This document shows, one piece after another, positions 8,621 to 21,742 of a stretch of DNA of 64,000 bases. The stretch is from NCBI GenBank assembly GCA_030295235.1, contig AP026169.1, forward strand, positions 372,001-436,000, given 5' to 3'. Below the pieces are notes generated by a model. The model made no database searches, was not told the origin of the DNA, and saw only the letters and a program-made list of their open reading frames with translations. The stretch's first letter is position 1; the number at the start of each line of letters is the position of its first letter. Made by a program: the position numbers and the translations under genes. The DNA comes from Fistulifera solaris. Lineage: Eukaryota; Bacillariophyta; Bacillariophyceae; Naviculales; Stauroneidaceae.

Positions 8621-9459
8621 CCCGTCAAATTTTCTTCTTTTCAATAAACTCGGGTAGGAGGAACTTAGACGACTGGTTTCAATAAACGGCGTTGAAAATG
8701 GTTTTGAGTTGCTGGCTTTGCTGCTCGAAGGTGCGGGAAATTGTGCAACTTTCACGTCGGCCCCCGTAGCTTCTAAAAGTTACCTAGCTGTCTTACCAGT
8801 TCTTATCTCGCCTAATATAAAACCTCCATCTACTATGGACTTACGGAACTAAGGAAAGAACTCCAGAAGAGGAATTCGGCTGGAATTTGGAACCCAGTTT
8901 CTTTAAGTTCAACTCCTACTAAAGAAAGAATGAAGAAAGGTTAGTACCTAGTACCTGGTTCTGTGTCGTATCGGGTAGAAGACTTCAATGACTGTCTACC
9001 AATAAGATAAAAACCAATTTCAAAGCAGCCAATCAAAATGGTTACCAAAGTTCAATTGGTGGCAGATGCCAACTATCTTCACTATTGTGCGCTGTCACCT
9101 CTCGAACGATATTCTGGCTGATAACACCCATACGTCACTACCTCGGTACTACTATACTATAGAAATTTTTGGTCCTTTTCTGCCTTTCGATTTCCCCAAG
9201 TTCTGACGACTTCGTGCTACTTTTTATTCCACTAAACGTTGCTCCTCCGCAATGACATTTTCGGCTGAAGGTTAGCGAGCAACCAGCCAATCATCGCCTG
9301 CAAGTGTGCAAGGGATGTTCGAAGTCGAAGCCAGATGGGCTGTACCAAGCGGCGTACGAGTCTACGCCCACAAATCCGAGCAATCGCAGATGGGCCGTTT
9401 CGATTGTATTTTGAGACCCCCCTCACCCTGTTTTTTCAATCATTCGAACATAAGTTACG
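8621..9459. other. intergenic, divergent mS33 / HSF
   Basis: About 840 bp. The part to 8755 is open in frame with mS33 and may be its 5' leader or an upstream exon. I see no further gene, repeat or RNA. Confidence 0.45.
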
Positions 9460-10398
9460 ATGAAAGGATACAAAGATCAAGCTAACGATACGATCACCGA
9501 GGGTCGTAGTCGTGCCAACACATGGTTTGTGAATCGGCTCTTCGACATGCTTGAAAACACTGACGCCGACGGCATCTCCGATATTATTTCGTGGCAACCC
9601 CACGGTCGTTGCTTCATCATGCGAGATCAATCCAAATTGCAAGAGATACTTCCCAACTTTTTTAAGCAAACGAAGACTTCTTCATTCCTTCGCCAGCTCA
9701 ACATATACGGCTTTTGTCGGATTGCTCGAGGCCGAGATCGCGGTGGATATTATCACGAACTGTTTTTGCAAAACAGACGCCATCTGGCACAAAAGATCAC
9801 TCCCATCAAAATGAAAGGAACCGGCGTGCGTACGAAAGGACCACAAGAGCCCAACTTTTGGGAAATGGAGTGGGTCAACATGCCGAATAAAGCGGATGAA
9901 GTACTCCCTTCGAAGGCCATGACACGATCGATGTCAATAGTGTCACATGACACGAAAGAGGTAGAAGACGCAACCACGAGCACCGAAGAAGAGAGGGAAT
10001 CGTCTGAACAGGAGTGCACTACAGTGGCTCCTACTGTCGTCAAGATCAAGAAGTTTCATGAGGTGGCGTCACCTCTTTCAGCACCCCAAGCAATTGCAGA
10101 TGATATGGAAGACTTATTTGAAATGGTCGGATCGAAGCCCTTTCTTCATGAATTTGTGTTAAATGGGAATGGGGTGTTTTTACTGGATCACGGTTTAGAT
10201 TCTGTGCTCGATCGTGATATCACAGCTTCGGATCCTTCGACAAGTCAAGAAGTAGATCATGACGACAACGCTTTCATTGTTGCTGCTCCTGAACTTAACG
10301 ACAACGACTTGGAGCTTGTTATGCATGACTTTCAAGATGAGTCGGTGGGACTCGGATTCGACGCTTTTCTTCAGTCCTACGATGAAGAAAGGTATTGA
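9460..10398 (+). CDS. Heat shock factor-type transcription factor (first of three)
   Basis: Single-exon protein of 312 residues with an HSF DNA-binding domain at about residues 14-120: WFVNRLFDML, then ISWQPHGRCFIM, FFKQTKTSSFLRQLNIYGF (recognition helix) and RDRGGYYHELFLQNR. It would bind heat-shock elements in the nucleus. After the domain comes the basic TPIKMKGTGVRTK and QEPNFWEMEW, a block shared in modified form by the two other HSFs here. The C-terminal half is acidic and disordered, compatible with an activation region; no clear HR-A/B coiled coil is visible. Diatoms have greatly expanded HSF families and most members have no known target, so a role in heat stress should not be assumed. 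Confidence 0.93.
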   Translation: MKGYKDQANDTITEGRSRANTWFVNRLFDMLENTDADGISDIISWQPHGRCFIMRDQSKLQEILPNFFKQTKTSSFLRQLNIYGFCRIARGRDRGGYYHELFLQNRRHLAQKITPIKMKGTGVRTKGPQEPNFWEMEWVNMPNKADEVLPSKAMTRSMSIVSHDTKEVEDATTSTEEERESSEQECTTVAPTVVKIKKFHEVASPLSAPQAIADDMEDLFEMVGSKPFLHEFVLNGNGVFLLDHGLDSVLDRDITASDPSTSQEVDHDDNAFIVAAPELNDNDLELVMHDFQDESVGLGFDAFLQSYDEERY

Positions 10399-11162: not shown

Positions 11163-12521
11163 ATGAGATTTCTCTTGCTCACCACAGTTTCGTTGGCGTA
11201 CGCATTCACTCGCCCATCACTGCCGATCCGACCCGCTTCGGTACGATCCCCCCTTGTTTGCGGTCAGCCCCGAAGAAGATCTTGAAATGACAATTAAAAT
11301 CATCATGGGTAGCCTCGAGAAACAGAATAATAATGACATCGAGACTCCGGTGACAGCTCCAGTTGTGACGAAGACGTACAAACAACCAGCCATTGAGGAT
11401 CGTCCGCGAAATGACTTGATGATGCGTGCCGCGATGGGCGAAGTCACCGAAAAGACTCCCTTGTGGTTGTTCCGTCAAGCAGGCCGTCATTTACCGGAGT
11501 ATCGTGAATACAAAGACAAGACGGGAAAGAACTTTCTCGAGTTGCTGTCAGATCCTTTGTGCGTCGCCGAGTGTACCCTGCAGCCGATCAGACGTTACCC
11601 AGTGGATGCTGCCATTTTGTTTTCCGATATTCTGGTGATTGCGGAAGCGCTGGGAATTGAAGTGACGATGCCGGGTGGAGTGGGCATTCAGGTACCTCAT
11701 CCCTTGAAGGACGCCAGGGAAGTCGACACTCGTCTTCCTGGTGTATCGGAAATTTCACCAGCATTCATTGAAGATAAACTAGGTCACGTCGTGGAAGCAG
11801 TCCGCGAAATTCGCCGACAAATGAAAAAGAAGATATTTCCATTCCGTTGATTGGCTTTTCAGCGGCTCCCTGGACGTTGTTGTTTTACATGGTAGGAGGC
11901 TCATCCAAGAAGAACACCGCGAGTGGCGTGCAGTGGCTGGAACAAAACACGGATGCGTCAAAAAAGTTACTACAGTTGCTGACCAAAGTCGTCATTGAGT
12001 ACATGTCGGCCCAAGTGGAAGCGGGATGTCACATGTTGCAAATATTTGAAGCCATGGGCATGATGATCGACGACGCAAACTTTGAAAAATTTGCTTTGCC
12101 CTGTTTGGAAGAGATGGGCCGAACACTCAAGCAACGTTTCCCCGACACACCCCTCATGGTATTCTGTCGAGGAAAGTGCTCTGCGAACGACAAAGTCGCT
12201 GCATTGGGGTATTTTGATGTAATAACGATTGACGGATCGGTGGATCGCAAGTCCGTTCGATCGTTTGTCGGAGACAAAGTCACTCTACAAGGAAACTACG
12301 ATCCGCGTGAGCTGATTCCAAACGCAGAAAACACGAAAACGCCCGAAACGGTACGGGAAACGGTTAGAGAAATGCTGGAAGCGTTGGGACCTAACAGACT
12401 GATTGCTAATCTTGGAGAGGGTCTGGGTGGAAACGAGAGTCCCGAACTTGTACAGGCGTTTGTGGACGCCATACACGAAGAAAGCGCGCTGATGATGGAA
12501 AAGAAAAACTATTTCTTCTAG
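11163..12521 (+). CDS. Plastid uroporphyrinogen III decarboxylase
   Basis: Converts uroporphyrinogen III to coproporphyrinogen III in haem and chlorophyll synthesis. The ATG at 11163 gives a signal peptide [19 protein letters not shown] with the diatom cleavage site A-F, followed by a basic/hydroxylated transit stretch, so the protein is predicted to be imported into the complex plastid. Family motifs: [15 protein letters not shown] (substrate-binding Arg), [11 protein letters not shown] (Asp) and [16 protein letters not shown]. Near the end: [24 protein letters not shown]. About 450 residues. Two one-base frame changes occur, in a C6 run at 11248-11253 and in the A-rich stretch near 11822. 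Both reading segments match the family on either side, so these are probably sequence errors, though a decayed extra copy is possible. Confidence 0.92.
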
Positions 12522-13981: not shown

Positions 13982-14635
13982 CTATACACTAAGATGACGA
14001 TAAGAAAAAGTCAGATTTTTAAATGAACTTCTACAGGTAGTTTCAACTTTCGATGCACTGCTGGAAAGGACGTTAAAATTATGCCTCTCGTACAAGATTC
14101 TACGTAGCATCCACGACGTGGCAGAATTTTAACGCCGTTTCCTACTGGATGAATTAAAAACCGTTGTGTCCGTACCGGTAAGATAGTGGCTTCTTTTTAA
14201 TTCATTCGGGACAAGATTGAGACACGAGAAGAACGTGCAGTAGCCAGTAGCATTAGCATCGGAATGGAAACGGAATGCAGTGCGCCACAAAAGGACAAAA
14301 CAAAAGAACACGGTTCGCATTTCGTGGCATTTTTACGCCATTTCTCCGCATCTACTTCAATTGAGTTCACATTTAGGCTGTTTGGGGATATAGGCCCTTA
14401 CTCTGTTATCGTTTCGAAGCAAGCAGCGAATGTAACATCTGCCGCGTCGCTTTCTAGCTTTCCGATGTTGATACCACAACATCATGCACGTCAGATGCAT
14501 CAGCGAGAATTAGTGGCACCAATCCGAACCGGAAGAGTTTGCTTTGAGGTGCTTTCGCCCGATCTTTTCATAAATTAACTATTTTTTCAAGAGCGTAAAC
14601 CCAAAATCAGACATAATTAAGTTGCAGTCGCCACA
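13982..14635. other. intergenic, divergent 8-TM protein / HSF
   Basis: 654 bp between two divergent starts. An open frame at 14264-14578 has no recognisable protein features and is not called. Nothing else seen. Confidence 0.45.
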
Positions 14636-15685
14636 ATGTGCCGCCCACCAGTGATTGCATCGTCGATCAGAACGAGGTCGACAACAGATTTGGCTTCGCT
14701 TTCCGATATATTCGCTCTGATTGATGAGGCCACCGAAGAATTGCAACAGGCCGTCGTCACCAACAAACAAAGTCAACCCAGCATATCTGCCGAGGCCAAT
14801 TTACATCGATCAAACCCACGTCTTGTCTCTTCCGATGACGTAAGGTCAGCAGTATTCTCGTCCAACAAGCGAGGACGTCATCAACGCAGACGCAACAGTT
14901 CATCACATCGTCGCAAGGAATATCACGAGCACGGTACCGTACAGCATTTGTATCATGATTATTCACGGGTATCTCCCGAAGCACAAGACTTCTTTGCGTT
15001 ACCTCTCAAAGGAGCGCACGGTGGGACCACGATTGCATTTCCAGTCGTTCTTCACCGTTTACTCACCGACGCTACCGAGGAAGGTTTTGAAGAAATCGTA
15101 GCATGGCAACCACACGGTCGAGCGTTTCTAGTTCATGATCACCATCGCTTTGTGGACGAGGTCATGCCTAAGTATTTTCGGCAAACTCGCTTTTCTAGTT
15201 TCCAACGCCAACTTAGCCTATACGGCTTCCTTCGATTGACCAAAGGCGCCGACAGTGGAGCCTATTACAACGAATGGTTCCTTCGGGGGTTGCCTCATTT
15301 GTGTGCACATATGCAGCGAACACGAGTGAAAGGCTACGGAGTCCGCCAGTCTTCCTCACCGGAAACAGAACCGGACTTTTACGGGATGGATGCTGTGAGT
15401 GCTCCTCAACAGGGACTACACACAGGAACGATACCAAGTAACTCGGTTGGAAGCACAACTTTCGTGCCGGCTCCGAAACTTTCGATCGAAGACTTTCCAT
15501 TCGAGAGTCTAGAACTTTACCCCGCTACCATAGATAATACTTTCGAAGAACAAGAAGCAATGGCAGATTTTCTATCCGATGTTGACCTTGACGACGAAGA
15601 CTCTTATTACTCGAGTCAGCCTTACGAGGGCGAAGATAGGTTTGCCAAGATCTACAATCACGTTATATATGCACATCCCGTTTGA
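14636..15685 (+). CDS. Heat shock factor-type transcription factor (second of three)
   Basis: Single exon, 349 residues. A long N-terminal region (about 125 residues) is Ser/Arg/His-rich with a basic RGRHQRRRNSSSHRR patch that could be a nuclear localisation signal. The HSF domain spans about residues 130-225: TIAFPVVLHRLL, IVAWQPHGRAFLV, YFRQTRFSSFQRQLSLYGF, DSGAYYNEWFLRG. Then come RTRVKGYGVRQ and EPDFYGMD, the same post-domain block as in the neighbouring HSFs. The C-terminal tail is acidic (LSDVDLDDEDSYY). It is the only one of the three with a Gln in place of Leu in FQRQL, a change also found in the third gene, so genes two and three are probably closer relatives. Target genes are unknown. 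Confidence 0.93.
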   Translation: MCRPPVIASSIRTRSTTDLASLSDIFALIDEATEELQQAVVTNKQSQPSISAEANLHRSNPRLVSSDDVRSAVFSSNKRGRHQRRRNSSSHRRKEYHEHGTVQHLYHDYSRVSPEAQDFFALPLKGAHGGTTIAFPVVLHRLLTDATEEGFEEIVAWQPHGRAFLVHDHHRFVDEVMPKYFRQTRFSSFQRQLSLYGFLRLTKGADSGAYYNEWFLRGLPHLCAHMQRTRVKGYGVRQSSSPETEPDFYGMDAVSAPQQGLHTGTIPSNSVGSTTFVPAPKLSIEDFPFESLELYPATIDNTFEEQEAMADFLSDVDLDDEDSYYSSQPYEGEDRFAKIYNHVIYAHPV

Positions 15686-16028
15686 AAAAATATAAATTAG
15701 AACACGTTCATGCATCTAAATCAAGTGTGTCGAATATGTCTTTCTGGTACGAGGGTTGGCATGTACGGGGTACACCCTAGTCAAATTCTTAAAGTAATTT
15801 TCGTGGGTCAATCGATGGTTCGACGAGTCTTTTGGTTCATGGTTCAAGATAGACATGGACCAAGGACAATAGATGTAAGGCTCAGGCTCTAGCTTGAAGT
15901 ATCTAGACTAAAATGACAACGATTGTTTGTTGCTTTTGTCTGTGAATTCCTAGTTGCAACTCCTAACCTTACTGCAACTCCTCCTTATTATGAGAAACAA
16001 GTAAATCAATGTAAAAACTTTGACGTTT
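15686..16028. other. intergenic between HSF and recombinase element
   Basis: 343 bp; no gene or motif recognised before the inverted-repeat site at 16029. Confidence 0.4.
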
Positions 16029-16047
16029 GCCGGACAAGTTGTCCTGC
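16029..16047. repeat. Left inverted-repeat site of recombinase element
   Basis: GCCGGACA and TGTCCTGC face each other across AGT. This is the layout of a tyrosine-recombinase core site, two half-sites around a crossover spacer, though the spacer is shorter than the usual 6-8 nt. Confidence 0.6.
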
Positions 16048-16384
16048 GTTTCCTACGACGTCCGTATTGCAACCGGTTACACAAAAGCAAAAATTCTTAA
16101 ACCGTAACCATATTGGTTCACATTGTAAGGAAATTACTGCTACGACGACTCATAAAGTATCCAAGTCATCTCAAAGTGCCTATAGTAACCTTCCAATCAG
16201 CATAATACACCTCCGAGTATTTCAGCCTTTACCATTGCGGAGAAGCACGCTTATTCACTTTGACAGATTGAAGACGCAGTACCCCGTAGTGAGAAGAGGC
16301 CACAAAACACTTAGGTGTATTGAATTAGGGCTAGGGCCAACCATATTATGACTCTCCCTTTTGACTGATCGGAAACTTTACGTA

Positions 16385-16508
16385 TTAGGAATTTCTGGAG
16401 ATGCAACTTTAGGCGTTAAGAATTTCTGGATATGCAACTTTAAGTCTTCAGAAAATCTGGAGACGCAACGATACGTGTTGAGAACTTCTGGGTGGAACGC
16501 TCCTCTTT
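16385..16508. repeat. 31-bp tandem repeat, four diverged copies
   Basis: Four consecutive 31-bp units start at 16385, 16416, 16447 and 16478, sharing the core AATTTCTGGAGATGCAAC in varying form. They lie inside the recombinase element between its left site and the end of its coding region. Copies differ at many bases, so the array is old. Confidence 0.75.
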
Positions 16509-16614
16509 TGGTAGAGTGCATGAGACTCATCCTCCAGCGGAGACAAGACATTTCCCGTTCAAAAAAAATCATTTCAATTCATTCATTTAGTCAGTTACAT
16601 TTCCTACATTTACA

Positions 16615-19600
16615 TTACTCCTTTGCATTTTTGCATGCAAAGGAACAGTACATGTTTAACTCGTTGTTGTCACTTGTAAGCCCAGCTCCCTGCGCGCACA
16701 AATTGTGCACGAACTTTGAACATGTGTCGTTGTAACATGGATGATCTGCGACGAGATTGTCGAACGCACAATTTTCGATTGGGCAAAAGCCTTTCTCTCT
16801 TCTTGTGAAAGCTCTGTCAAGCAACTGCGAATATTGTTGTCTTTCAATCAACGAGTTGCATCCGTGGTTCTGTCGCGTGCCACGTTGAGCGTTGTTGATA
16901 AATAAACCAGAATTTCTGGAGGAGGTACGAGCATCACTTCTTTCATGTCCCTGGAGATCTTCCACGGCCTGTATTGCAAGCTGTGTTTGCAGCTCTTCGT
17001 CTCTAAGTGCCTGGGTGACTGTCTTCTCAATTTGGAGTGGAACATCTCGAAAAACTTCTTGAAACGACGGACCGACAATATCAGCTCTTTCAACAGCTCT
17101 CTGGCTTTGACGTCGTGAGCGTGTTTGGCTTGTTGTCTTTGTCTGTCGAGTGCGAGAACTTGTTGTAGCGGATCTTCTTGCAGTGTGTGTGTGTGAGGTT
17201 CTTCTATTCAAGGCGTGCAATCACTGGATTATTGACTGTCACCACTGGAGCTGGCTGTCGATGTGGAATCTGTCCAGCCGGAGCATTTTGCTTAGCTGGA
17301 TCTTGTGTTTGACTGGGACTATTGCTGAGCTCATTCTCATTGCGCCTGCGCACTTTGTTGCGAATCTGTCGAACAAGTGTCCGCCATTTCCATTGTTCGA
17401 ATCGTGGTGAGCTTGGAAAGTATTGTGTTTTCCATGATGACGTAACCGCTTTGAAAGCCATCATCATGTTTGCATTATTGATCTCGGTAAAACCATGATG
17501 GAGGCGGGCTAGGTCCTCAATGTGCGTGCAGATATACTTTACGTCTGAAAATGTTTTCCTCGTAGGGCGTCGGCTTTCCGTCAGATGCTTTTCACGGCGG
17601 CACTCTCCTTCCGATAATGGCATTTCGTCGATAAATGAAAAGTCTTCGCTTGTGAGGTTCTTCAAAGGTGGTACTGCCCTTGAAGCGTTACCAACATTCC
17701 ACTGCGTCCAGACGTCGAGGATTGTTTGGGAAGGAAATTGATAGTTGGAAGGCAAGCTTGTTGCTGTTATGGTGTTTACTGTTTGTTCTACTGCCACGCC
17801 CCGTCCCAGTCTGCTCAATCCTGAATGAACGGAACAATTCGTTAAAGTGCTGCTGCATGCCAGCCCTTGCTGTAGCTGTGGCCTCTACAATAAGCTCCTT
17901 TAGTCGTTCTTCTGTTATTTCCCCTCCTCCTATCGCCGCGTTTCAAAGTAGTGCTTTGTACTCTCCATTATTCTGTTAAAGAGTTCTTCTGCCGACGTCT
18001 TAAGCTGTTCCTTGAGCTCCGCAAGGTCGGTAAGTTCTTTGACGTGCGGGGGTACACCTGAAATGTGGTTTGTAGTCTCCCACATGTTATCTACGCCGGA
18101 TCGAATTGGAAGCTGTTTCTAGAATTTGAACGTTTCGGAAGATGCTGATACAGTGTCTAGCAGGGTGATTTGGTTCAAAATTCAGCACTATGTTTCGATG
18201 ATGGACCAGACTAGCTAGACACTGCTTTAGAATTCGATTCATGCCTTGCAGCTCATAAAAGCATGGGAAGTTTGCAGCTATGCAGCTATTGATGAACTCT
18301 GTGGACACAACATCCATATCAAAGTAAGCAGGTGACTTTGCAAAATCACTGGACATGAAATTCAGCATTGATAAAGAGCGACCAACAAACTCGTCACCTG
18401 ACTGCAGCTGCTGAAAATAAATGTCGAGCACCTTGCCTGTGCTCCAGCCAGCCCTGTGACAAATTGCAACGGAGATGGCCCAGCAGGCATCGATCCGAGA
18501 TAAGATGCCGCTTCTTTCGAATAGAATGCAAACCAATGTCGTCTAATTTGTCATATCCCATGCCGATGACTTCCTGCTCATGTAGGCGTAGAATCTTATG
18601 CATTGTGTCCCGTACACGCTTTGTTGTTGCTTGGTGGCTTCCGGGAAACAAGTGGTAACCGCCTCCTTGTTCTGATGTCATCGTGAAAGAGAATGACAAA
18701 TAAAGGCCTAGAAGAAATGGGAAGTCAACGTAATACTCATTGACATTAGAGTAAAGGTTTCTTTGCTTCCGCTTGTCCTTCCCTTCGGCATCTGTCTTTG
18801 TATGGCGGAAATTGATTTGCATGCAATCAAATTTTGTCCACGACATGTGGCTAAATTGCAGCTCTGCTGTGTTGTGGCTCCGACAAGCCAAATTCCAGGT
18901 GAGGCAAATAAAGCAGGCAGAAGCAATACTCTCCTTTGAACCATAATCAACAAGCCATTTGCATACAGAACGATACAGTTGTGGTGACATGGCAACTTTT
19001 CCTTCTTTGAAGTCATCGCTGTCATCTTCTTCTTGGCCGACATTGTCCTCGACATTATCTGGTCCGCGCTATGCCGGGTTTGTCAAGCGGCTGAACCCTT
19101 TCCATAATGTGTTCATCTGTTGCAAGTATTCCTCTTCAGGGCCCTTCCCGTTATGACAACGGCACAGATGAAAGATTGCCGCTCGCTTGCCGTTGTAGCC
19201 ATCCATTGATAACTGCTGGCCAGTTCTTTGATTGGCGGATGAAGCAATGTATTCCATTACAGCACTTGCATCAATGCGATCAACATGGATGAGTGGTTCA
19301 GTTTGTGCTAGTGGGAGACAATGAAGCCAAACAGCCTTGATCCTTGCACGGCGTTCTTTTTTCCGACTTCGCCTTCGATTGTTTTATCGGTAGATTTAAC
19401 TGTTTCCTTTCCAAGTTCTGTAAGCCAAGGTAGGGCTAAATCAACGTCGTGATCAAGCACCCAATTCATAAAATGAATGATTTCATTGCAATACCTTTCA
19501 TAGACAGATTTCTTGACAACACCATCCCGCATCTCTTTGACAGTCACAGGGACAGAAAGGGTCTTACGCTTCTTTGAAGGACGTTCGGGTTCAGCAGAAG

Positions 19601-19685
19601 GCTCTGCGTTATATTCCTCTTCCATTTCTGCACGATTATCCTCTTCCACTCTTGCCAATTTGAATGTTGCTCGTAAGTTCAACAA
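16615..19685 (-). pseudogene. Tyrosine recombinase with PHD-like finger, frame-broken
   Basis: Read from 19685 downward. An acidic start with a KKRK nuclear signal is followed by a SAM-like core-binding segment (SVYERYCNEIIHFMNWVL, 19530-19450), GYNGKRAAIFHLCRCHNGKG (near 19190) and the catalytic domain. Catalytic residues can be seen: Arg in WNLACRSHNT (near 18890), HSIRK (near 18530), ICHRAGWSTGK with His and Trp (near 18470), and Tyr in LDIYF (near 18430). The downstream part includes the segment 17818-17204. At 16790-16630 there is a Cys-rich end C-x4-C...C-x4-C-x3-H-x2-C...C-x3-C, like a PHD finger. The frame changes about five or six times, so this copy is inactive unless the changes are sequence errors, as host genes in this window suggest for some. 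Exact joins are not claimed. Confidence 0.75.
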
Positions 19686-19898
19686 AGAGACGTTTGATCA
19701 AAGTACGCTTTAGTAACAACAGCGGTAGATGTTTACTGCTTACTTAATGACTGCGGTCTAGAGCGCTCGTAGAAATACTACCAGGCAAATGCTGTCCTGC
19801 AAACGTTTCTGGTGTTGGTTGAAATTTCAAATGATCAAAAAATGTCTGGTCTAGTAAAGTTGAATCATTTTCCGTTGACTAGCCAAGAAAAAACATTT

Positions 19899-19918
19899 GC
19901 CGGACAGAAATGTCCTGC
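19899..19918. repeat. Right inverted-repeat site of recombinase element
   Basis: GCCGGACA-GAAA-TGTCCTGC, matching the left site in both half-sites with one extra spacer base. It lies 214 bp upstream of the first recognisable codon of the recombinase. Confidence 0.6.
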
Positions 19919-20618
19919 AAAAGAGGCTGCGTATGTAGAAAATGTACTGTCTATATTTAGTCACGAACTTCTTGTCCTGCAAAAGTAGAACACTGTCTAA
20001 TGTCTAGTAGGAAGTAGCTTGAAGAACGTTTTCTTCGGAACTGTTTGGACATTCCACGGTTTAGGGCTATAATATGATTAGTCAGTCACGAGTTGCCGTT
20101 CCCAAATAGTACAAGCAGTGCCGAGTGCCAACCATCAACCATTCACATGGTGTACATTAACAACCGCTATACTGAATGGTTTGACCCGTGACTTGCTATT
20201 GTGTGCCGTGTGAGTCTCACTATATAAATTAAAGTAGTGGTCGGAGTAACGCGTCAAAGTCACCATCGTCACGTCGGTCATTCCATGAATTTCTGAACAA
20301 CCGTCACCCAGACGTACTCTATCCTATCAAGCCTGACACGAACCTTCGAACGCTTCGAGCCTCCGAGTCCAAAGAGTGAACTGCAGAACACAAAGCGGCA
20401 ATCAGCAATTTGCAATCCCATCCTTTTGGGTTCGCGACGAGGAACGTAGAAGCTCTACTTTTCGATATCTTTCGAGCGGAACGTGATGAATGAGGATTTC
20501 GATGTTATCTTCCGGAGGCGAATTTTAATTTGTGATTTCGGTAGGCACACAATTATTTGACTTTTGAGTGCCATGATTTATGGAATCTTGATCAAATGCG
20601 ACATTGGCATCAATAACC
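19919..20618. other. intergenic upstream of third HSF
   Basis: 700 bp. It holds one more TGTCCTGC half-site (19973-19980) and a 'tatataaatt' stretch at 20221-20230 that could be a core promoter element. No gene seen. Confidence 0.45.
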
Positions 20619-21742
20619 ATGAACGAAGAATCCTTTGAAAGTTTGAGCTCGCCCACAACAAGGTCCTCTCGACGACGAGGATCTATTGAGACACATCATC
20701 GCCATGTCAGTCCAGCTAGGCGAGTGTTGGTGGATCACACTTACACCGATCACATGCACGATTCTATCGCCCCTAGTATCGAGACGATTGACATTCATGA
20801 TGGCAAGAACGCCCCCAAAAGGACCTCGCGGGGGCGTTACAGTAGCTCTTCCAGAAAAGCTTCACCAAATGTTGTCACAAATTGAAGAGGAAGGATTGTC
20901 TCATGTCGTTTCGTGGCAGCCCCATGGGCGTTGCTTTCTCGTCCACAGGAAGAGAGAATTCATCGATGATATTATGCCTAGGTGAGCAATAACCTTACAA
21001 AGTAACATTTGGCTTATTGGTTTCGCGGTTTCGACTCACATTTATCGGATTTAGACATTTCAATCAGTCAAAACTGACAAGCTTTCAGCGGCAATTGAAT
21101 TTATACGGCTTTGTCAGACTAACTGCAGGCCGTGATAGAGGCGGGTAAGTCTCTATTGCTGGTTGAAGCCCGATTACTGAAGTGCGATCCCATTTCTAAT
21201 ACAAAATGTTGTTTCTTTTAGATACTATCACGAACTCTTCATCCGTGGTCGGCCCGACTTGTGTCGTAGAATGGTACGGACGCGTGTCAAAGGAAATGGC
21301 ATGAAAGCAGCTTCGAATCCGCAGAATGAACCTAACTTCTATGCGATGGAAGAGTGCAAGTCGACCTATGAGTACGAAAACGCACCGGTTACGATGTGTA
21401 CGGAAAGTCTCGACAAGACTCTACTCGATATTGACAAGCCACCGGAAATGAGTTCCCCCGTTCAAAAAGCCAATTGTGACTCCTATTCAATCGCCACGAC
21501 AGTCACTTTCTTTGGTACACAATCCCCCCGAAAGCATCATGATGCTAGAACTCGGTGAGCCCCCGAAAGTAATGGACTTTATAGACGACATGTTCTTGGG
21601 ATCTGTTGTGAGTGAAGACAACGAGCCGCACAATGGAGACGAAATATTTTTTGAGGGGCACAAGTTTTGTTACCTTGACCATATGGAACCGGAAGAGACG
21701 TACGACACCACGATGCTTGGGGTTCCCGACAACATCATTTGA
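20619..21742 (+). CDS. Heat shock factor-type transcription factor (third of three)
   Basis: Three exons: 20619-20981, 21055-21144, 21222-21742; introns of 73 and 77 nt (GT-AG) interrupt the DNA-binding domain, unlike the two intronless neighbours. The domain reads VALPEKLHQML, VVSWQPHGRCFLV, HFNQSKLTSFQRQLNLYGF and DRGGYYHELFIRG, followed by RTRVKGNGMK and EPNFYAMEE. The N-terminus is Ser/Arg-rich, the C-terminus acidic. The ATG at 20619 is preferred; upstream in-frame codons lack a Met. Two one-base changes of frame lie in homopolymers (C5A4 at 20812-20820 and C6 at 21524-21529), and similarity resumes after each; I treat them as assembly indels. Nuclear regulator with unknown targets. Confidence 0.88.

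Follow-up and report, generated by a model that had tools for sequence, protein, structure and literature searches.

A Crypton-type element in the diatom Fistulifera solaris with repeated paired sites at its ends and a probable recombination core outside them

Two rare, matching palindromes lie on either side of a tyrosine-recombinase-like gene in a 64,000-nucleotide stretch of the diatom Fistulifera solaris genome (contig AP026169.1, positions 372,001 to 436,000; hereafter the window), and the locus raises the question of where this DNA recombines. An initial annotation had read the segment as a Crypton-like element and the two palindromes as its recombination sites. The element is indeed present and the palindromes belong to it, but they are not its ends: it occupies window positions 16007–20002, and its DNA continues 17 bp beyond the left palindrome and 79 bp beyond the right one, to CAATG and TAATG cores. 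We conclude that it is probably a Crypton-type DNA transposon, closest to CryptonS, that would move by way of a circle and insert at a short core.

A rare palindrome is confined to the ends of element copies

The left palindrome, GCCGGACA-AGT-TGTCCTGC, spans 16029–16047, and the right one, GCCGGACA-GAAA-TGTCCTGC, spans 19899–19918; additional TGTCCTGC half-sites start at 19793 and 19973. These coordinates all agree with the initial annotation, as does its judgment that the pair is unlikely by chance: with a gap of 0–12 bases, the palindrome pattern matches twice in the window and not once in any of 100 dinucleotide shuffles. In the whole assembly (51,715,745 bases), the same pattern has four matches, against none for the reversed control. 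Two are in the window, one is in C20 (463.5 kb) and one is in C41 (1.2 kb, close to telomere-like repeats). A relaxed pattern (either base at the variable position, gap of 2–6) returned the same four places. The whole-genome search proposed in the initial annotation thus finds the exact motif solely at the ends of element copies (four of four places), but those ends lie outside the motifs.

The half-site TGTCCTGC alone is less special, with five window matches where 1.6 are expected, one of which (3581) is outside the element. The 13-base half-site TTTGCMGGACAAG has 19 genome matches, compared to three for the reversed control, and seven of these fall in known element copies. The remaining 12 places (L050–L061; 271 bp scanned at each) contain no second exact half-site and no paired sites; CAATG occurs at four of them, 103–134 bp away and never at the 17-bp position at which element half-sites stand. 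The single half-site was therefore rejected as an element marker, being present at 12 unpaired places outside known copies. Some of these 12 places appear, by eye, to lie in coding stretches.

A DNA search with window positions 15700–20300 as the query returned 18 matches, including the window itself. In C41, the left end is present from the core inward for 440 bp, of which 439 are identical to the window copy, and then gives way to subtelomeric repeats. C20 holds a 118-bp mini-element without a recombinase gene, in which 106 bp of the right end match the window copy at 105 positions and the left margin is not the usual left end. C7 has both ends (79–81% identity) around 1,960 bp, with no listed frame longer than 112 amino acids. 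C33 and C31 represent a relative: their mutual identity is 98.5% over 3.0 kb, and they share ~67% DNA identity with the window copy in the recombinase region. C33 is without the left part; in C31, both ends are present, separated by 3,816 bp.

Empty sites place the ends at a short core

The 51.7-Mb genome contains pairs of homoeologous contigs, and F. solaris is described as allodiploid (PMC13276009, PMC5935921). An element-less counterpart is available for four copies: the window copy (C23, both flanks), C41 (the C33 subtelomere, left flank only), C20 (C19) and C31 (a dispersed repeat). C23 has the flanks of the window copy at 83–90% identity (80–82% in short pieces) without the element. Its empty site reads AGTT-CAATG-TGTAAG, and the window copy reads AAAT-CAATG-TAAAAAC at its left end and ACTGTC-TAATG-TCTAG at its right end. 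The C33 subtelomere, in element orientation, reads GAAA-CAATG-AAGATT where C41 reads GAAA-CAATG-TAAAAAC; this comparison is one-sided, C41 having no right end. CAATG (CATTG in gene orientation) thus stands at the left junction of both empty sites of the window subfamily, which argues for a match between the core of the element and that of its target; it also stands at three of three left ends (window, C41 and C7). Around the window junctions, no exact direct repeat longer than AATGT (16008–16012 and 19999–20003) was found; at 6 bp, the repeat is CAATGT/TAATGT, with one mismatch.

For the C20 insertion, homoeologue C19 reads CAACTCATTTTTTTC; C20 itself is bounded by CATTT to the left and CATTA to the right, which are separated by 118 bp. 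The repeat members around the C31 insertion read TTTTCCACTTTTC, with TTTTCCA-GATAATC at the C31 left end and TTAA-CCACTTTTC at its right end, leaving three shared bases (CCA). The right flank of C31 is identical at 60 of 60 bases in two of the three repeat loci fetched; the third contains two copies that soon diverge from it (33/60 and 12/20). This repeat has 40 further matches listed in the genome. C8, the homoeologue of C7, was rejected as its empty site because the differences between C7 and C8 extend beyond the element.

The empty and counterpart loci that were retrieved (L023, L043–L049) are all devoid of exact half-sites. They include the seven empty or repeat counterparts of the window copy, C41, C20 and C31 (L023 and L043–L048); the initial annotation had predicted one motif at empty sites in related strains. 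Because the empty-site comparisons place the ends outside the palindromes, we take the recombination point to be the short core rather than the palindromes.

Two diverged subfamilies share the layout of the end sites

From the left core to the nearest half-site there are 17 bp in the window copy, C41 and C7; in C20, the half-site-to-core distances are 19 and 17 bp. C7, C33 and C31 repeat the right-end half-sites in the same order, and C20 has the palindrome and the terminal half-site of this end. The inner right palindrome of C31 and C33 consists of a half-site at 97 bp and a degenerate partner, and all three exact half-sites of each 9.9-kb locus (C33 and C31) are in the right end. The half-sites are kept there although blastn, at an E-value cut-off of 1e-3, detects no similarity between the two subfamilies in the right end. 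Four left ends (window, C41, C7 and C31) share the palindrome and the 16-bp block following it; the half-sites of C7 and C31 are degenerate. The initial annotation had suggested that the motif pair would flank other copies; the relative at ~67% identity does keep most of the layout, but its palindromes are degenerate. Two further blocks, 16060–16075 and 19930–19948, are conserved between the diverged subfamilies, one per end.

The termini also form imperfect inverted repeats, with 18 of 27 matches in the window copy and 20 of 27 in C7. When every 27-mer of the window was compared with the right end on both strands, a single unrelated position scored as high as the left end. The palindromes and half-sites are probably recombinase-binding sites.

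Table 1. Features of the element, in window coordinates
Feature	Position	Strand	Basis or remark
Whole element, core to core	16007..20002	- (recombinase gene on minus strand)	Empty homoeologous locus C23; other copies sharing ends
Left core CAATG	16007..16011	+	Stands in empty C23 locus and in one-sided empty counterpart of C41
Left 27-bp imperfect terminal inverted repeat	16012..16038	+	18/27 ungapped matches to right end
Left palindrome	16029..16047	.	17 bp inside left core; also in C41; degenerate in C7, C31
Conserved left-end block (16 bp) after palindrome	16060..16075	+	Near-identical in the 4 left ends aligned (window, C41, C7, C31)
31-bp minisatellite inside left end	16374..16491	+	Sequence
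C-terminal open reading frame (ORF), Cys/His-rich PHD-like end	16615..17220	-	Weak match, E 0.049, below cut-off
ORF in C-terminal part of element	17204..17884	-	No family match above cut-off
Recombinase ORF piece, GWS...Y and following segment, another frame	18087..18542	-	ORF list and alignment
Recombinase ORF piece, catalytic Arg (ACRSHNT) and HSIR	18394..19068	-	ORF list and alignment
N-terminal recombinase ORF piece	19308..19697	-	Resembles by eye N-terminus of 380-aa C33 ORF; automatic alignment did not align it there
Third right-end half-site	19793..19800	.	197 bp inside right core; 207 bp in C7, 201-202 bp in C31 and C33, same orientation
Right palindrome	19899..19918	.	Half-sites 91 and 79 bp inside right core; same place in C20; degenerate in C7, C31, C33
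Conserved right-end block after palindrome	19930..19948	+	Largely conserved in the 5 sequences aligned
Right 27-bp imperfect terminal inverted repeat	19971..19997	+	End-to-end comparison
Terminal right half-site	19973..19980	.	17 bp inside right core; 17 bp in C20 and C7 (C7 core by analogy), 13 bp in C31 and C33
Right core TAATG, one mismatch to CAATG	19998..20002	+	End and direct-repeat comparison

The element encodes the catalytic residues of a tyrosine recombinase

The tetrad R-HxxR-W-Y is readable in the element and is clearest in the sister copy C33, where a single open frame of 380 amino acids carries ACRSNN, LHSLRK, CGWS and VLDIY (R, HSLR, GWS and DIY) in canonical order. Nine residues lead from the tryptophan to the tyrosine in this ORF, a distance also found in known tyrosine recombinases. 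The C33 ORF weakly matches two phage-integrase families (E-values of 6e-4 and 1.1e-3), within residues 189–374. In C31, leucine replaces the second catalytic arginine. The initial annotation had described Arg, HxxR, His/Trp and Tyr as all visible in the window copy; the residues are there, on the minus strand, but spread over different reading frames.

No reverse transcriptase or DDE transposase match was found in eight of eight window frames of at least 120 amino acids overlapping the element, or in eight of the nine C31 gene-strand frames of at least 80 amino acids. The remaining frames of the element that were scanned were named neither transposase nor reverse transcriptase nor peptidase, and neither GCR1_C nor any other Pfam family scored above cut-off in element frames. 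A search for relatives of the recombinase yielded no match in viral contigs and, in prokaryote genomes, 16 pattern matches of which none was confirmed.

A model for excision and insertion

From this architecture we infer a likely sequence of steps. The recombinase would bind the inverted arms at both element ends and pair them, and strands would be cut and exchanged at the 5-bp core. The element would then become circular, with a joint made up of half-site, 17 bp, core, 17 bp and half-site, and the circle would insert at a matching short core elsewhere (CAATG for the window subfamily). The terminal half-sites would be part of the core site, with the inner ones serving as accessory, arm-like sites. 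The inner sites could also act as an operator controlling the recombinase promoter, which would then lie at the right end.

The window element has probably been active recently, as judged from its identity to two other insertions (439 of 440 and 105 of 106 bases) and from its empty homoeologue. The C20 mini-element raises a further, doubtful possibility, namely that the right-end block of ~106 bp (palindrome plus terminal half-site) is a self-sufficient mobile module in which the inner palindrome stands in for the left-end site. Because the right junction of C20 is like those of other copies and the CATT core is found on both sides, one palindrome and one terminal half-site may suffice for mobilization in trans; because its left margin is unlike the usual left end, it may have another origin.

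Alternative readings

That the two palindromes are themselves the recombination sites, with crossover between 16029 and 19899 excising the intervening segment, would agree with their form, arms of ~9–11 bp around a short spacer being usual for tyrosine-recombinase sites, and with their rarity in the genome. We nevertheless consider this highly improbable and reject the palindromes as crossover points, which the empty-site comparisons contradict: in the empty sites the core is present and the motif absent. Moreover, element-specific sequence common to C41, C7 and C20 runs past the palindromes toward the CAATG/TAATG cores, the two spacers differ in length (3 versus 4 bp) and sequence, and the C20 mini-element lacks the left part that a palindrome-to-palindrome deletion of the window copy would leave. 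It is somewhat easier to imagine, but still unlikely, that the inner palindromes and half-sites are purely regulatory, an operator or promoter of the recombinase gene without a role in recombination. The recombinase frame, with a first piece starting near 19697 on the minus strand, does have the right-end cluster just upstream of it; yet the left end has a palindrome as well, a long way from where the gene begins, the terminal half-sites are arranged symmetrically around the core, and the gene-less C20 mini-element has retained sites of this kind.

Two other readings assign the mobility to a different enzyme or a different ancestry. The imperfect terminal inverted repeats and the 5-bp direct repeat could point to a DDE transposase acting on the 27-bp repeats and duplicating a 5-bp target, with the tyrosine recombinase as a passenger, and a mariner–Crypton fusion, MarCry-1_FO, does exist (PMC3212892). 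This is quite unlikely, given that the scanned frames contain no DDE transposase match (a transposase could still act in trans), that CAATG served in both of two independent targets, which random duplication of 5 bp would not be expected to give, and that the C31 insertion shares three bases only. That the element descends from a DIRS- or Ngaro-like retrotransposon and has decayed until only the recombinase was left is hardly credible: such elements also carry tyrosine recombinases (PMC3212892), but no reverse-transcriptase match is found in the scanned frames of C24 (3,991 bp) and C31 (3,816 bp), the two relatives that possess recombinase frames as well as both ends.

Several observations weigh against the reading that we prefer, a Crypton-type element moving through a circle. 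The circle or tandem joint pattern has no match in the assembly, which need not hold circles, and Cryptons have been described as lacking terminal inverted repeats (PMC3212892, PMC3627910). The right core of the window copy is TAATG instead of CAATG, the cores of C20 (CATTT/CATTA) share CATT, C31 has only CCA in common with its target, and no CAATG is found at the C7 right end, where the core and the 17-bp spacing are placed by analogy; these weaker matches imply that core identity is not strict or has decayed. C7 has one extra half-site at 133 bp, and the C31 left end has no exact half-site. The window recombinase gene is split over several frames, its read-through matches no PHROG family or any other, and Pfam, NCBIfam and PDB name no recombinase among the element frames. 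Pfam Phage_integrase has no match in the genome at E-values up to 10, compared to matches in 14 of 14 control genomes, and the structure model of the recombinase is too poor to use (mean predicted local distance difference test score of 38). Because the window read-through matches nothing and Phage_integrase finds nothing in the genome, it is chiefly the catalytic pattern and the mobile behavior that support the tyrosine-recombinase assignment. We do not claim that the window gene is inactive, because the assembly may hold insertion or deletion errors. A uroporphyrinogen decarboxylase gene in the window (11167–12521) is likewise interrupted by a change of frame, with profile coverage running on across it (2–136, then 135–345), which suggests residual errors of this kind.

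Comparison with known elements

CryptonS elements have been described from seven oomycetes and Phaeodactylum tricornutum (Kojima and Jurka 2011, PMC3212892), with terminal direct repeats of 5–6 bp, mostly TATGG termini, a conserved C-terminal region and no GCR1_C domain (PMC3212892). Judged by this published description, our element resembles them in its stramenopile-type host, its few copies and a tyrosine recombinase as the sole recognized enzyme. The catalytic tetrad R-H-R-Y of CryptonS is present in one C33 frame and split over two frames in the window. Short terminal direct repeats, 5–6 bp in CryptonS, are found here as CAATGT/TAATGT with one mismatch; they are weaker in C20 (CATT) and C31 (CCA) and not seen in C7. 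TATGG termini, a majority feature of CryptonS, were not found, a difference that does not exclude membership.

With Cryptons at large, the element shares the absence of any matched reverse transcriptase or other transposase in its scanned frames; it differs from them in its imperfect 27-bp inverted repeats and repeated inner sites. Non-autonomous Cryptons (CryptonI-1N1_RPro, CryptonA-1N1_OL and 1N2_OL; PMC3212892) keep Crypton ends without a recombinase gene, as do C7 (1,960 bp) and C20 (118 bp), but CryptonI-1N1 retains 438 and 260 bp of its ends (PMC3212892), whereas C20 retains only ~106 bp of the right one. The circle model for Cryptons was proposed by Goodwin et al., as recounted in PMC3212892, where Crypton boundaries are also said to be difficult to characterize. 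We met no end architecture with repeated inner sites in the parts of PMC3212892 available to us, and we do not claim that it is absent from print.

The end layout invites comparison with phage-type attachment (att) sites with arm sites, as used by lambda Int, in which a short core with inverted arms is accompanied by further binding sites. Our element is similar in having a short core with inverted arms and further sites some distance inside; it differs in that its putative arm and core sites appear to share one motif.

Fragments, repeats and neighboring genes

C37 contains three tandem fossils of one recombinase piece, in a 2.8-kb tandem unit (~99% identical; L027 1769–9901) where the fossil lies beside a frame matching Pyr_redox_2 just over the cut-off. 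Fragments on C16, C4 and C46 were rejected as copies: they match only the left-end non-coding part or the minisatellite and have no exact half-site. Similarity to these parts covers L031 4389–5793, L032 4937–5095 and L033 4816–4939, likewise free of exact half-sites, and on C16 the homology to the element left end is broken by ~0.9 kb. The short dispersed repeat that contains the C31 element within one of its copies is represented by L030 7191–7263 and L043–L045, and a DUF285 repeat protein frame (L030 7220–8191) directly adjoins the C31 copy, near a telomere. HSF-type DNA-binding genes lie near the window element, with Pfam matches at 9454–10398 and 14621–15685; a similar gene to its right (20800–21558) was recognized by eye only, and its frame 21181–21558 has no Pfam match.

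Discussion

The element is of a known kind, and its end architecture is a useful new detail. Taken together, the two diverged subfamilies, the four empty-site comparisons and the 118-bp mini-element yield a core, an arm spacing and a minimal candidate substrate, which makes the binding and excision of a eukaryotic tyrosine-recombinase transposon directly testable. The C20 mini-element, with its empty homoeologue, suggests which sites suffice for movement. If the right-end block does prove to be a mobile module, recombination in this group of Cryptons would rely on a compact module of two sites, with accessory sites in repeated copies.

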